DNA of 64,000 nt from Sphingomonas sp. AX6 (GTDB lineage Bacteria > Pseudomonadota > Alphaproteobacteria > Sphingomonadales > Sphingomonadaceae), in assembly GCF_902506605.1 (NCBI RefSeq), contig NZ_LR733979.1, positions 321,468-385,467 of the forward strand, in the 5' to 3' direction. The position numbers and the translations under genes are program-made. The notes under the pieces were generated by a model that had not been told where the DNA came from, did no database searches, and was given only the letters and a program-made list of their open reading frames with translations. Below, piece after piece: positions 54,405 to 60,342 of the stretch (its first letter is position 1; every line of letters starts with the position of its first letter).

Positions 54405-54905
54405 TCAGCGTTCGACCACGTCGCCCCGCATCGGTGCAAGCTTCGACAGGAACCGGTTCTGCGCGGCAAACGGAACGCCTTCCGCCGCCATCGCGGATTG
54501 CAGGTTCTCGACCAGCCGGTTCATGTCGCCCTGTTGCACGCCCATATCCTTGTGGCTGCTCCGCATGTCGCGCCCGGTATAGGTGCAGCCCGCGTTCAAG
54601 ATAAAACAGAACTGCTCGAATAGGGTGCGTTTCAGCCGCACCTGATCGTGGTTCGCGAAAATCTCGCCGATGCGGTCGTCGGCGAAGTTTACGGCGACGA
54701 AGCGGTCGACGATGCGGCGAATGCCGTCCTGTCCGCCAAAGGCGCGCGCCATGTTGTCGCCGGCAAAAGGTGTAGCCCCGGCATTGGCGGGATTAACCGT
54801 ATAGGGTTCGACCGCTTCCTCGCCCGGCATCGCGTGCGCGGGCGGCGCGACTTGGTCCTGCGGGACGACCAGCATTGCGAGCGCGATCATCGAAATTTGG
54901 AGCAT
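54405..54905 (-). CDS. Exported group 1 truncated hemoglobin
   Basis: A 166-residue protein with an N-terminal hydrophobic signal (MLQISMIALAMLVV) and a Pro/Ala/Glu linker, then a 2-on-2 globin core (residues about 50-160): MARAFGGQDGIRRIVDRFV (helix A/B start) and the proximal His in RDMRSSHKDMGV. A globin sent out of the cytoplasm is unusual. It would bind O2 or NO at a b-type heme. Its ATG overlaps the DUF3034 stop (TAATG), so the two are translated in tandem. Cofactor delivery to the periplasm is not explained. Confidence 0.85.
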   Translation of the reverse strand: MLQISMIALAMLVVPQDQVAPPAHAMPGEEAVEPYTVNPANAGATPFAGDNMARAFGGQDGIRRIVDRFVAVNFADDRIGEIFANHDQVRLKRTLFEQFCFILNAGCTYTGRDMRSSHKDMGVQQGDMNRLVENLQSAMAAEGVPFAAQNRFLSKLAPMRGDVVER

Positions 54906-55795
54906 TAGAAACTTCCCTGAAGCTGAACGAGCACGCCGCGCTGGCCCTCGATCGTCGCGATCGATCCGAGGTCGGTATAGGCGACCGTCGCGGTAACATG
55001 ACGGTTGAACGCATAGGCCGCGAACGCATCCCACCAATCGTCCTCGCGCGCGATGCCCAGATTGTCGGGCTTGGTGCGGTATTCCGCGCCGACCACGAAT
55101 TTCCGCGAAAATTGATAGGCGAGCGATCCTTCGACCTGGACGCTGTGGCTGTCGCGCAGGTCGCCGCCATAGCCGAGCAGCCCGGTCTGGTTGGCCTTTG
55201 TCGCGCGAACGGTCACATTGCCCAGCACCGACCAGTTCAGGAACAGCTTGGTCGCCGAGAGGTAATAATCGACGCCTTGGTCCTGCGCCGCCCCCACCGC
55301 GCGAACGATCGGCGCATCCAGGCTTTTCTTGTATTGCACGCCCACGGCGATCGCGGGCATCCATTCGGGGCCGTAAACGACATCGCCGGCCAATTTGACT
55401 TTCAGGCCCCAGATGTCCTGATCGAATGTGTAATCCTCGCCCAGCCCCAGTGCGCCACCGACCCAGTTGGTGTCGAACATCTGGCGCGCATAGCTAACCT
55501 CGATCCGATCCCACGCGCCGATCGCAATGCCCGCACTGCGGAAATCGTAATCGGCGAGTTCGGCGACGGTGACATTGGCCTGCGCGCCGACGCCGTCGCG
55601 CGTGCCGTTGCCGGCGATCACAGCCCAGGGCGTCAGGCCACCGCCCGATGCGCCTTCGATTGTCGAGACGCCATTGGTCAGCAACAGCTTTCCCGGTTCG
55701 GCGACCTGTTGCGCGACGGCGGGCGTTGCCGCCAGCGAAAGTGCGGCGAGCGAAGCGAAGCGCGATCTGCGCGCGATCGAGACGAAGCGGTCCAT
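54905..55795 (-). CDS. DUF3034 family outer-membrane-type protein
   Basis: A 296-residue exported protein matching DUF3034. A signal peptide (ending ATPAVAQ) precedes GKLLLTNGVSTIEGASGGGLTPWAVIAGNGT, a family signature, and then alternating beta strands ending in the C-terminal aromatic residue of VLVQLQGSF, a pattern of outer-membrane barrels. Its function is unknown. It is coupled to the truncated hemoglobin downstream and faces the cupredoxin gene across 106 bases. Confidence 0.85.
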   Translation of the reverse strand: MDRFVSIARRSRFASLAALSLAATPAVAQQVAEPGKLLLTNGVSTIEGASGGGLTPWAVIAGNGTRDGVGAQANVTVAELADYDFRSAGIAIGAWDRIEVSYARQMFDTNWVGGALGLGEDYTFDQDIWGLKVKLAGDVVYGPEWMPAIAVGVQYKKSLDAPIVRAVGAAQDQGVDYYLSATKLFLNWSVLGNVTVRATKANQTGLLGYGGDLRDSHSVQVEGSLAYQFSRKFVVGAEYRTKPDNLGIAREDDWWDAFAAYAFNRHVTATVAYTDLGSIATIEGQRGVLVQLQGSF

Positions 55796-55801
55796 GCCCG
55801 T

Positions 55802-55811
55802 CGGTTAACCG
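55802..55811. promoter_or_regulatory. Palindrome in the shared DUF3034/cupredoxin promoter region
   Basis: CGGTTAACCG is a perfect 10-bp palindrome inside a longer imperfect dyad (CCATGCCCG... and ...GGGCGATGG). It is 7 bases upstream of the DUF3034 start and 90 bases upstream of the cupredoxin start, so a protein bound here could control both arms of the cluster. A further GGTTAA follows at 55818. Confidence 0.5.
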
Positions 55812-55901
55812 GGCGATGGTTAAAAAGCGGTTCACTGTCTTCGATCAATTTTGACCGCACCTGTTTACGAGAGTTTGACGATTTCGTCCGATACGGATGC
55901 G

Positions 55902-56504
55902 ATGAAGACAGTTTTAGCCATCGCTGCCGCCAGCCTTGCCGCGTTGCCTGCCCAAGCCGGAAATGTCGGGGTTCGCGTCGTCGATTCGACTGGCAAGCCG
56001 GTGACGGACGCGGTGGTCACGATCCATCCTGCCGCTGGTGTGCCATCAGGGCCGATCCGCTTTCCCTGGGCCAATCAGGTGATTCAAGAGAACATCGCCT
56101 TCAATCCGGGCACGTTGATCGTGCCGGTGGGGGCGACGGTGACCTTTCCCAACCAGGACAAGGTACGCCACCATGTCTATAGCTTTTCCAAGCCCGCACG
56201 CTTCGAACTGAAGCTGTTCGGGCGCGAAGAAAGCCGCGGCTACACCTTCAAGACCGCAGGCGCGGTCGCGCTTGGCTGCAACATCCACGATTCGATGTCG
56301 GGCTTCATCAAGGTCGTCGATACGCCGTTCGCGGCCAAGACCAATGCCACCGGCGGTACGCTGGTCGAAGGGGTGACGGGCGGTGCCGCGAAGCTGACCG
56401 TGTGGCACCCGCGGCTGCGGGCCAAGGACAATGAAGCGGTATTCGACCTCGACGTGCCCGCAAGCGGTGAGATCGCCAAGCGTATCCAGATCGTGCTGCG
56501 CTGA
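55902..56504 (+). CDS. Cupredoxin-like protein (annotated elsewhere as methylamine utilization protein)
   Basis: A 200-residue exported protein: signal peptide (MKTVLAIAAASLAALPAQA) followed by a carboxypeptidase-regulatory/plastocyanin-like fold. The type 1 copper ligands are visible: His in VRHHVYSF (about residue 88) and the C-terminal GCNIHDSMSG (Cys, His and Met, about 125-134). The protein thus should bind one copper ion and carry electrons in the periplasm. There are no methylamine dehydrogenase genes near. It ends 5 bases before the GGDEF-EAL gene. Confidence 0.85.
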   Translation: MKTVLAIAAASLAALPAQAGNVGVRVVDSTGKPVTDAVVTIHPAAGVPSGPIRFPWANQVIQENIAFNPGTLIVPVGATVTFPNQDKVRHHVYSFSKPARFELKLFGREESRGYTFKTAGAVALGCNIHDSMSGFIKVVDTPFAAKTNATGGTLVEGVTGGAAKLTVWHPRLRAKDNEAVFDLDVPASGEIAKRIQIVLR

Positions 56505-56509
56505 TCATC

Positions 56510-58819
56510 GTGGCGGGGGGCAGCTCCATTTTGCGGCGGGGCGCGACGAAGCTGGGCACGTCGCTCTCGGCCAAGCTAACCCTGTTCTATGCCGGGCTGT
56601 TCGCGCTGGCCGCCGCGCTCATCCTGCTGGGTGCGCAGACCGGGATCAGCGCCTATGCCGAACGTATGGTCGCCAGCGAGATGGCGGCGGGCGCCAAGGT
56701 GTTCGATCGCGTCACGACGATGCGCTATGCCCAGCTCGGCGATGCGGGCCGCGTGCTCTCCGCCGATTTCGGTTTTCGCGAGGCGGCGGCCACCGGCGAT
56801 GCGCCGACCATCGCCTCCGCGCTCGATTCGCTGCGCGGTCGCCTCGACCTCGATCAGGCATTTTTCGTCGATATCGACGGCAATGTCACCGGGTTCATGG
56901 GCGCATTGCCACCTGCCGACGCCGAGACGCTGCGCGCGGCGCTCGATTCGGGTGCGGACAGCGGGGTGCTGAGGATCGGAGACGTGCGCTTCAACGCCGC
57001 TGCCGCACCGGTCGAGGCACCGGTGACGATCGGCTGGGTGGTGTTCGCCAATGCGCTGGATGGCGATGAAATGGCGGCGCTTTCCAAACTGTCGGCGATC
57101 GACCTTGCGCCGCGCATCGTACCGCTGGACAGCCTGCCCGCCGGTATGTCGATGAGGGCGGCGACCGAGCATATCGTGGCGGGCGAACGCATGCTGGCGC
57201 AGGCCTCTCCCATCGCGTCGTTCCGCAGCGACGATCCCCAGGCGCTGCTGCTCGAATACAGCCTGACGCACGCGCTGTCGCAATATGCGCCGATGCTGTG
57301 GTCGTTGCTGATCTGCGGGATCGTCGGCGTGATGATGGCGGTGGCGGGTAGCTGGCTGCTCGCTAAGCGCATCACCCGTCCGATTCGCGCGCTCGACGCC
57401 GCCGCGCGTCGAGTCGCGCAGGGCGATTACGCCCAGGTCGCAGTGGAGACGCGCGACGAACTCGGGACATTGGCCGACAGCTTCAACCGGATGGTCGACG
57501 ATATCGGCGAGCGCGAGCGTCAGATCACGCACATGGCGCTGCACGATGGGCTAACCGGCCTCGCAAACCGCACCTTGTTACGCGAGCATTTGGCGACGAT
57601 GGCTTCGCGCCCCGCCACCGATCGCAAACAGGCGCTGTTCTGCCTCGATCTCGATAATTTCAAGGTCGTCAACGATACCCTCGGCCATCCGACGGGCGAC
57701 GCATTGCTGTGCGAAATCGCGCGGCGGTTGGCTACCTTTGCAGGCGACGGGTTCGTCGCGCGGCTGGGGGGCGACGAATTCGCGCTGGTGATCGACGACA
57801 GTCAGCGCCCGCTCGACCGTACCGCGCAGGAACTCATTCAAACGGTGGCGAGCCCCTGCATCGTCAACGGACATCGGATCGTGCCCGGCACCAGCGTCGG
57901 GATTTCGATTCTGGGGGCCGATGGGGTCGATTCGGTCACATTGGTCAAGAACGCCGACCTCGCGCTGTACCGCGCCAAGCATGACGGGCGCGGCGGTTTC
58001 CGCTTTTTCGAAGCCGAAATGAACGCAGAGGCGCAGCGGCGTCGCCAAATGGAACTCGACCTGCATGACGCGATTGCCGAAGGGCAATTGTTCCTGATGT
58101 TCCAGCCGCTGTTCAATCTGGCGGAGGGGCGGGTATCGGCGTTCGAGGCCTTGCTGCGTTGGAACCACCCGACGCGCGGGCTGGTGTCGCCGGTGGATTT
58201 CATTCCGCTGGCCGAGGATACCGGGCTCATCATCCCGATCGGCGAATGGGTGATCCGCGAGGCCGCGCGCGTCGCGTGCGGCTGGCCCGATCATGTGCGG
58301 GTTGCGGTCAACGTATCGCCGGTGCAGTTCCGCAACCCTGGGCTCAACACCGTGATCCTTCAGGCGCTGGCCGAAACCGGCCTGCCGCCCGGCCGGCTGG
58401 AGCTGGAAATCACCGAAAGCCTGTTCATCGACAATCCCGAAACCACGCTCGCATCGCTCCATTCGCTGCGCGCGCTGGGCGTCCGGGTCGCGCTCGACGA
58501 TTTCGGTACGGGTTATTCCTCCCTCAGCTATCTGCGCAGCTTTCCGTTCGACAAGATCAAGATCGACCGCAGCTTCATCATCGACTTGCTGGGGTCTGAC
58601 GGCGCGACCGCGATCATCAAATCGATCACCTCGCTGGCCGACGCGCTGGGGATGGAGACGACGGCGGAGGGCGTCGAGAATGCCGGCCAGCTCGATATCC
58701 TGCGCGAACAGGGCTGTAGCCATATTCAGGGCTATTATTTCAGCCGCCCGGTGACCGAGGACGCGGTCGCCGCGATGCTCGACAAACCCATCGATGATCG
58801 TCGCGTCGCCAACGGTTAG
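56510..58819 (+). CDS. Membrane-bound GGDEF-EAL protein (c-di-GMP turnover)
   Basis: A 769-residue protein: first helix (about 21-45), a periplasmic or extracytoplasmic sensor (about 46-255), second helix (about 262-285), HAMP (about 286-340), GGDEF (about 345-505) and EAL (about 515-760). The cyclase site is intact (RLGGDEFALVID), but the product-inhibition RxxD motif is FAGD. The EAL site is complete (FEALLRW, NVSPVQF, ELEITES, DDFGTGYSS, KIKIDRSF, AEGVEN, QGYYFSRP). The protein could make or break c-di-GMP depending on the sensor. It is cotranscribed with the cupredoxin (5-base gap, GTG start). Confidence 0.93.
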   Translation: MAGGSSILRRGATKLGTSLSAKLTLFYAGLFALAAALILLGAQTGISAYAERMVASEMAAGAKVFDRVTTMRYAQLGDAGRVLSADFGFREAAATGDAPTIASALDSLRGRLDLDQAFFVDIDGNVTGFMGALPPADAETLRAALDSGADSGVLRIGDVRFNAAAAPVEAPVTIGWVVFANALDGDEMAALSKLSAIDLAPRIVPLDSLPAGMSMRAATEHIVAGERMLAQASPIASFRSDDPQALLLEYSLTHALSQYAPMLWSLLICGIVGVMMAVAGSWLLAKRITRPIRALDAAARRVAQGDYAQVAVETRDELGTLADSFNRMVDDIGERERQITHMALHDGLTGLANRTLLREHLATMASRPATDRKQALFCLDLDNFKVVNDTLGHPTGDALLCEIARRLATFAGDGFVARLGGDEFALVIDDSQRPLDRTAQELIQTVASPCIVNGHRIVPGTSVGISILGADGVDSVTLVKNADLALYRAKHDGRGGFRFFEAEMNAEAQRRRQMELDLHDAIAEGQLFLMFQPLFNLAEGRVSAFEALLRWNHPTRGLVSPVDFIPLAEDTGLIIPIGEWVIREAARVACGWPDHVRVAVNVSPVQFRNPGLNTVILQALAETGLPPGRLELEITESLFIDNPETTLASLHSLRALGVRVALDDFGTGYSSLSYLRSFPFDKIKIDRSFIIDLLGSDGATAIIKSITSLADALGMETTAEGVENAGQLDILREQGCSHIQGYYFSRPVTEDAVAAMLDKPIDDRRVANG

Positions 58820-59859: not shown

Positions 59860-60342
59860 TTACTCGCGCTCGTCCGATTGCGGGTTGGCGATTGCGGCTT
59901 CCTTTTCCTTGGGTTTGTTCGCCTCGAAGGTCTTGGCCAGCTTCTTTTCGGTTGCAGCCGACAGTTCCTCGGCAGCCGCCGGGAACATTTCCTCCTCTTC
60001 CTCGTCGATATGGTGTTCGTAACGATGGCGCATATCATCGAATTTGCGCTTCCACGCGGAAGAGCTCATGTCGATGTCGGCCAATTCGCCCAGGAAATCG
60101 TCGATTTCCTTATGTTCGGACACCGAATGGCGCGCTTCGTCGCGCAAGTCGGGATTGCCGAGCATTTCGGCATAAAGCGATTCTTCTTCCGCAGCGGCGT
60201 GTGCGGTAACCTCGACGCGAAAGGCCTCGAACAAAGTCCGTCGGTCTTCGCTGTCGCCCGACGTCTCACCCAATTTGGCGAGCAGCTCGCGGTGGCGGTC
60301 GTGATCGGATTTCAGATCGGCGTAGATTTTTGCTTCGGCCAT
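59860..60342 (-). CDS. Hemerythrin-like HHE domain protein
   Basis: A 160-residue four-helix protein that should bind a di-iron pair. Candidate ligands are His at 14 (SDHDRH), His in VTAHAAAEEESLY (about residue 48), the VSEHKEIDDF segment (about 76) and HRYEHHIDEEEEEMF (about 110-116). Such proteins store, sense or carry O2, NO or iron. The last 40 residues are charged and lysine-rich. Its coding strand runs away from the palindrome; the ATG is preceded by AACAGGAGCAATTCTC. Confidence 0.9.
   Translation of the reverse strand: MAEAKIYADLKSDHDRHRELLAKLGETSGDSEDRRTLFEAFRVEVTAHAAAEEESLYAEMLGNPDLRDEARHSVSEHKEIDDFLGELADIDMSSSAWKRKFDDMRHRYEHHIDEEEEEMFPAAAEELSAATEKKLAKTFEANKPKEKEAAIANPQSDERE

Follow-up and report, generated by a model that had tools for sequence, protein, structure and literature searches.

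Association of an exported truncated globin, a predicted DUF3034 barrel, a cupredoxin and a c-di-GMP receptor in Pseudomonadota: a possible cell-envelope sensory module

Introduction

Why would a bacterium gather genes for a truncated haemoglobin, a DUF3034 protein, a cupredoxin and a membrane-bound receptor around one short intergenic region? The question is raised by a 64,000-nucleotide stretch of the Sphingomonas sp. AX6 genome (contig NZ_LR733979.1, positions 321,468 to 385,467), the whole of which is referred to here as the window. On the minus strand lie the genes for a 166-residue exported group-1 truncated globin (positions 54405-54905; Pfam PF01152, Bac_globin, 1.8e-9) and for a 296-residue DUF3034 protein with a signal peptide (54905-55795; PF11231, 5.9e-93). 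Facing them across a divergent intergenic region of 106 bases (55796-55901, no strand) are the plus-strand genes for a 200-residue periplasmic cupredoxin (55902-56504), recognized by weak Protein Data Bank (PDB) matches and four copper ligands, and for a 769-residue membrane receptor with a GTG start (56510-58819), in which Pfam detects dCache_3, HAMP, GGDEF and EAL domains.

A preliminary description of the window proposed that these genes form a sensory unit, in which gas or redox state at an outer-membrane site sets the level of cyclic di-guanosine monophosphate (c-di-GMP). The layout on which it was based was reproduced from the coordinates, including the single base shared by the DUF3034 and globin genes (TAATG), the 106-base divergent gap and the 5-base spacing between cupredoxin and receptor. 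It also described all four products as exported or membrane-bound, and this is clear for DUF3034, the cupredoxin and the receptor; the signal segment of the window globin is itself weak, and support there comes from the leaders of its orthologues.

Distribution and gene order of the module

The module is real and is broadly conserved in proteobacteria. Profiles of the globin and the cupredoxin were run against 397 Pseudomonadota genomes, with thresholds of at least 126 bits for the globin (its scores were bimodal, the next best being 100 bits) and at least 118 bits for the cupredoxin; the counts are of species genomes and are uncorrected for phylogeny. Carriers of DUF3034 numbered 28 among 100 relatives and 46 among the 397 genomes, and spanned 29 genera. 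The module's type of globin was present in all 46 DUF3034-positive genomes versus 2 of the 351 DUF3034-negative ones, and the cupredoxin in 45 of 46 versus 15 of 351. Gene neighbourhoods were read at 153 loci, 73 from whole genomes and 80 named from GTDB genomes, and linkage was counted over the 130 DUF3034 loci flanked on each side by 5 kb or more. In this set the globin gene adjoined DUF3034 at 127 loci, the cupredoxin lay within 5 kb of it at 104, and a dCache-GGDEF-EAL receptor was nearby at 83. Whether the four genes occur together in related genomes had been chosen beforehand as one of two points on which the sensory-unit idea could fail; the tabulated neighbourhoods place the complete set together in many genomes (82 of the 130 loci).

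At least three gene orders were found. The divergent order of the window is that of Sphingomonadaceae and other alphaproteobacteria, while two collinear orders run cupredoxin-receptor-DUF3034-globin and, in Caballeronia, DUF3034-globin-cupredoxin-receptor. No further gene family recurred near DUF3034 in more than 7 of the 153 loci, and no gene fusion, including one of globin to receptor, was seen in the loci examined. The AX6 genome (3.0 Mb) contains a single Bac_globin gene, that of the module, and nine EAL genes; by simple arithmetic on this genome size, the chance that any of the nine EAL genes lies within 5 kb of a chosen position is about 3%. Given these numbers and the recurrence of the set across the phylum, the grouping of the four genes is far beyond chance. 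On these gene counts, DUF3034 is genetically inseparable from the exported globin, and the cupredoxin and the dCache receptor are its recurrent partners.

The exported truncated globin

The AlphaFold2 (AF2) model of the globin (predicted local distance difference test score, pLDDT, 95) has the 2/2 globin fold of a group-1 truncated haemoglobin, and its best Foldseek matches are structures of HbN, with a root mean square deviation of 1.0 A and a template modelling score of 0.91. Residues were tallied over 154 rows, comprising the window globin and 153 relatives. The proximal histidine at F8 (His118 in the window) is invariant in 154 of 154 rows, so the haem site expected by the preliminary description appears to be in place. 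No CxxCH (c-type haem) motif is found in the window globin sequence.

The distal side of the pocket is apolar. The hydrogen-bond pair TyrB10-GlnE11 of HbN was looked for and is missing: the window globin has Val70 at B10 and Leu95 at E11, B10 is Val, Met, Leu or Ile in most rows (Tyr in 10 of 154), and E11 is Leu, Phe or Ile in all 154. Position E7 is aliphatic or aromatic in every row except one with Pro, E14 is Gln in 131 of 154 rows, and PheE15 is present in most members. In HbN, the bond to O2 depends on TyrB10-GlnE11, and these residues have been tied to NO dioxygenation (PMC3493545); very hydrophobic distal pockets in truncated globins accompany very fast loss of O2 (PMC4720485). Because the distal pocket is apolar, O2 is disfavoured as a ligand, and nitric oxide (NO), carbon monoxide (CO) or redox-active species would be favoured over it.

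Taken together with HbN of Mycobacterium tuberculosis, the module globin has the same fold, the same proximal histidine and, in most members, the same PheE15. It differs in being exported or a lipoprotein, in having Val, Met, Leu or Ile for Tyr at B10 and Leu for Gln at E11, in a mostly Gln E14 and in a pair of cysteines. This pair (Cys100 and Cys107 in the window, at E16 and seven residues further on) is found in 152 of 154 rows, and both cysteines are absent from the other two (L107 and L120; L numbers denote loci). Since the two are kept or lost together, they probably form a disulphide, and hence a periplasmic location is probable. Among the 153 relatives, 34 have a lipobox and 114 a hydrophobic leader; the leader of the window globin is hydrophobic and lacks a basic n-region. 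A lone globin of the module's type is carried by two genomes without DUF3034 (L221:6001-6459, with a clear lipobox, and L215:5998-6597).

The predicted DUF3034 barrel

The DUF3034 protein of the window scores 311.5 bits against PF11231, for which the Pfam gathering score is 25. It is predicted to be a 12-strand outer-membrane beta-barrel: its AF2 model (pLDDT 81) has 12 strands, the Foldseek matches listed are outer-membrane barrels (FapF, OmpG and NanC, at about 10% identity), and the signal peptide, the even-numbered antiparallel barrel and the C-terminal Phe of the predicted structure are marks of outer-membrane proteins. The N-terminal segment is glycine-rich and conserved, and is of low confidence in the model.

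Genes resembling those for an extracytoplasmic function (ECF) sigma factor and an anti-sigma factor lie near the DUF3034-globin pair at L108, L119, L162, L172 and L173, all of which are without the GGDEF-EAL receptor. In one metagenome-assembled genome, the gene directly upstream of DUF3034 encodes a membrane protein in which a 2Fe-2S ferredoxin domain is combined with a class III cyclase domain (L112:6955-8736).

The cupredoxin

No Pfam model matched the cupredoxin, either in the window or in the AX6 genome, and its PDB matches, to amicyanin and pseudoazurin, are weak. It is nevertheless identified from its sequence as a type-1 copper protein, with ligands His90, Cys126, His129 and Met132, the His, Cys, His and Met being invariant in 25 aligned members. 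The copper loop, Cys-x2-His-x2-Met, has amicyanin-like spacing, and GenBank relatives are labelled 'methylamine utilization protein'. The loop and the annotation name are what the module cupredoxin has in common with amicyanin of methylamine utilization; in contrast to amicyanin, its domain is often set in a CarboxypepD_reg-like frame and it adjoins a receptor. Genes of the mau type (methylamine dehydrogenase) do not recur near DUF3034 at the 153 loci.

Cupredoxin homologues without DUF3034 adjoin a barrel-like protein of about 415 residues, with no Pfam match, at L209, L223, L225, L231 and L235. Upstream at L209 are genes for a PKHD-type hydroxylase and a TonB-dependent receptor, in an iron-uptake-like setting.

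The receptor and its outputs

The window receptor consists of a transmembrane segment, dCache_3 (residues 59-199), a second transmembrane segment, HAMP (283-332), GGDEF (343-494) and EAL (517-747), all domains being above the Pfam cut-off. The EAL catalytic set (E, R, N, E, D, D, K, E) is present in this receptor and in all 107 homologues, with the last Glu replaced by Asp in two. The GGDEF signature is intact in the window receptor and in 54 of the 107 homologues, and the inhibitory RxxD site (I-site) is absent from the former and present in one of the latter. Because EAL is invariant and GGDEF is degenerate in about half, the conserved activity is most likely that of a c-di-GMP phosphodiesterase, with c-di-GMP breakdown as the output. 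Control of c-di-GMP, as first proposed for this GGDEF-EAL protein, would thus most likely run through breakdown.

A dCache-GGDEF-EAL receptor stands beside the cupredoxin at 85 DUF3034 loci and at 15 loci without DUF3034. Elsewhere the adjoining transducer is a dCache_3-HAMP-guanylate cyclase (L213), a dCache_3-HAMP-histidine kinase (L226), a methyl-accepting chemoreceptor (L138, from Acidisphaera, and L242) or another kinase (L243, a histidine kinase with HAMP, REC and Hpt; L117, L066 and L127). Some of these output-swapped loci use a shorter cupredoxin with a weak profile score. Because the output domain of the partner differs between lineages, the swapping supports a portable input role for the cupredoxin.

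Partial correlations of pairwise distances, computed over 84 loci, were 0.52 for globin-DUF3034, 0.42 for globin-cupredoxin, 0.36 for cupredoxin-dCache and about 0 for cupredoxin-EAL; the cupredoxin-dCache value was 0.55 in divergent loci and 0.22 in collinear ones. The values are suggestive at most; in them the divergence of the sensor domain follows the cupredoxin more than that of EAL does, and the sensory idea gains support from this.

The intergenic region and other candidate links

The preliminary description drew attention to a palindrome, CGGTTAACCG, in the divergent intergenic region. It is present there (55802-55811), and it was found in none of the intergenic regions of 55 divergent relatives, so that it was rejected as a conserved operator. 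The half-site GGTTAA/TTAACC occurs in the upstream regions of 22 of 52 divergent relatives versus 2.4 expected from shuffles, and is a possible shared regulator site; GTTTACG-like motifs also recur upstream of the cupredoxin in divergent relatives. The neighbouring PilZ protein, first put forward as a possible reader, was found at the window locus only and was rejected as part of the module. A link to denitrification through NirK was rejected, as 4 of 100 relatives were above the family cut-off and none of them carries DUF3034. A link to flagella through FlhA was likewise rejected, this gene being uninformative because 92 of 100 relatives carry it.

Proposed function and alternatives

The reading preferred here, with a probability of roughly 45%, is a cell-envelope sensory module in which a haem-copper relay feeds interchangeable transducers. 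Sequence supplies the association of the genes and the conservation of their motifs; the ligand, the electron transfer and the direction of signalling are inferred. The globin would sit at or near the DUF3034 barrel in the periplasm, where it would bind a small ligand (NO, CO or a redox-active species) or shift the oxidation state of its iron. The cupredoxin would exchange electrons with the globin and signal the state of the latter by docking on the dCache domain. Docking would be passed through HAMP to switch EAL activity, with lower c-di-GMP favouring motility, and in some lineages the same input would reach a chemoreceptor, a histidine kinase or a cyclase. Of the original sensory-unit idea, the core is strengthened by the swapped outputs and by the sensor domain that tracks the cupredoxin, whereas PilZ and the palindrome gain no support and O2 is disfavoured. 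More tentatively still, the module may represent a new class of envelope signal input, a globin-cupredoxin redox relay that is anchored at a dedicated outer-membrane barrel, reads conditions outside the cell and drives interchangeable transducers of the inner membrane across Pseudomonadota.

Several observations weigh against a sensory function. About one-fifth of the full-flank loci have no nearby cupredoxin and about one-third no GGDEF-EAL receptor. The DUF3034-globin pair stands alone near its locus in some genomes. The mirror-tree values are modest, and that for globin-cupredoxin is only 0.09 in divergent loci. In Lysobacterales/Rhodanobacteraceae, where the cupredoxin is proline-rich and lipoprotein-like, the dCache/CHASE4-like membrane protein stops after HAMP and has no output domain. 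Such receptors occur at L110, L115, L119, L140, L145 and L164, and their position beside the cupredoxin recurs in several genera (L110:8974-9897, L164:8948-9928, L145:12286-13353 and L115:8721-9794); because of them, c-di-GMP cannot be the universal readout. Finally, the cupredoxin family is not purely sensory, since some of its homologues occur in an iron-uptake setting, where their neighbour is a barrel-like protein unrelated to DUF3034.

The strongest alternative, although an unlikely one, is a mainly catalytic function. In this view the barrel and globin work with the cupredoxin as a redox system of the envelope, for instance one that removes NO or peroxide with the cupredoxin as electron donor, and the receptor merely tunes lifestyle to the condition concerned, without touching the cupredoxin. 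The near-invariant DUF3034-globin pair, often found without the receptor, fits this view, as do the periplasmic truncated globins of cable bacteria, which are proposed to be redox enzymes fused to cytochromes (PMC11976967). However, the TyrB10 and GlnE11 of NO dioxygenation by HbN are missing, and cupredoxin and transducer pair without the barrel and globin and with swapped outputs, as a signal-input pair predicts. Trafficking or sensing of metal or haem is more doubtful. Here copper, haem or a metal complex would pass through the barrel, to be carried by the globin and cupredoxin or to have its occupancy sensed by them, and metal load is what the receptor would respond to. The cupredoxin is plausible as a reporter of copper occupancy, and in some genomes its homologues have a TonB receptor, a PKHD hydroxylase and a barrel-like protein as neighbours, but genes for copper resistance, export ATPases, siderophores or haem uptake do not recur near DUF3034 at the 153 loci. 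Least probable is shared regulation of separately acting proteins of the same niche, whose genes would stay together because they share a promoter region and are transferred horizontally. The short control region of divergent pairs with its over-represented GGTTAA half-site and the patchy presence within the genus agree with it, but the set persists in at least three gene orders, among them unlinked cupredoxin-receptor pairs in genomes with DUF3034-globin at another site, for which a shared promoter is insufficient.

Comparison with known systems

The module resembles YfiBNR/TpbB in envelope architecture. In that system, periplasmic protein(s) and an outer-membrane component act with a membrane c-di-GMP enzyme containing HAMP, the output is that of a cyclase, and neither YfiR nor YfiB is a haem or copper protein; the module, in contrast, has predicted haem and copper proteins and a probable output that is mainly that of a phosphodiesterase. 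Globin-coupled sensors and H-NOX/NosP are cytoplasmic haem proteins that drive c-di-GMP or other outputs as fusions or direct partners. In the module the globin is exported, which puts the inner membrane between globin and output. A globin-coupled sensor was rejected, as globin and output domain are in separate genes and unfused at the loci examined. Porin-cytochrome conduits (Mtr, Pio, Cyc2) also combine an outer-membrane barrel, a haem protein and a periplasmic electron carrier, but the predicted 12-strand barrel of DUF3034 is too narrow for the globin and multihaem/CxxCH motifs are absent, and a conduit of this type was ruled out on both counts. Periplasmic truncated globins of cable bacteria are fused to pentahaem cytochromes (PMC11976967). 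They are alike in being non-cytoplasmic truncated globins with a redox partner, and differ as multihaem fusions from the separate genes, cupredoxin, outer-membrane barrel and receptor of the module.

Significance

The four-gene set is apparently undescribed in the open-licence literature, where searches combining truncated globin with cupredoxin or methylamine utilization and GGDEF/EAL gave nothing relevant; DUF3034 itself appears there in an apparent slip for DUF3037 and in a passing entry of an actinobacterial table. The parts are of known kinds and their combination is new. DUF3034 gains a predicted structure and a set of partners, and exported truncated globins that carry a pair of cysteines emerge as a conserved family. 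The module suggests that bacteria may use haem and copper proteins, rather than cytoplasmic haem sensors, to detect signals of small molecules or redox state beyond the inner membrane. Some of its hosts in Sphingomonas, Caballeronia and Lysobacter are strains amenable to genetics, which makes the idea open to direct test.

Neighbouring genes

About 1 kb past the module in the window, beyond an HU gene, a hemerythrin-domain protein is encoded on the minus strand (59860-60342).

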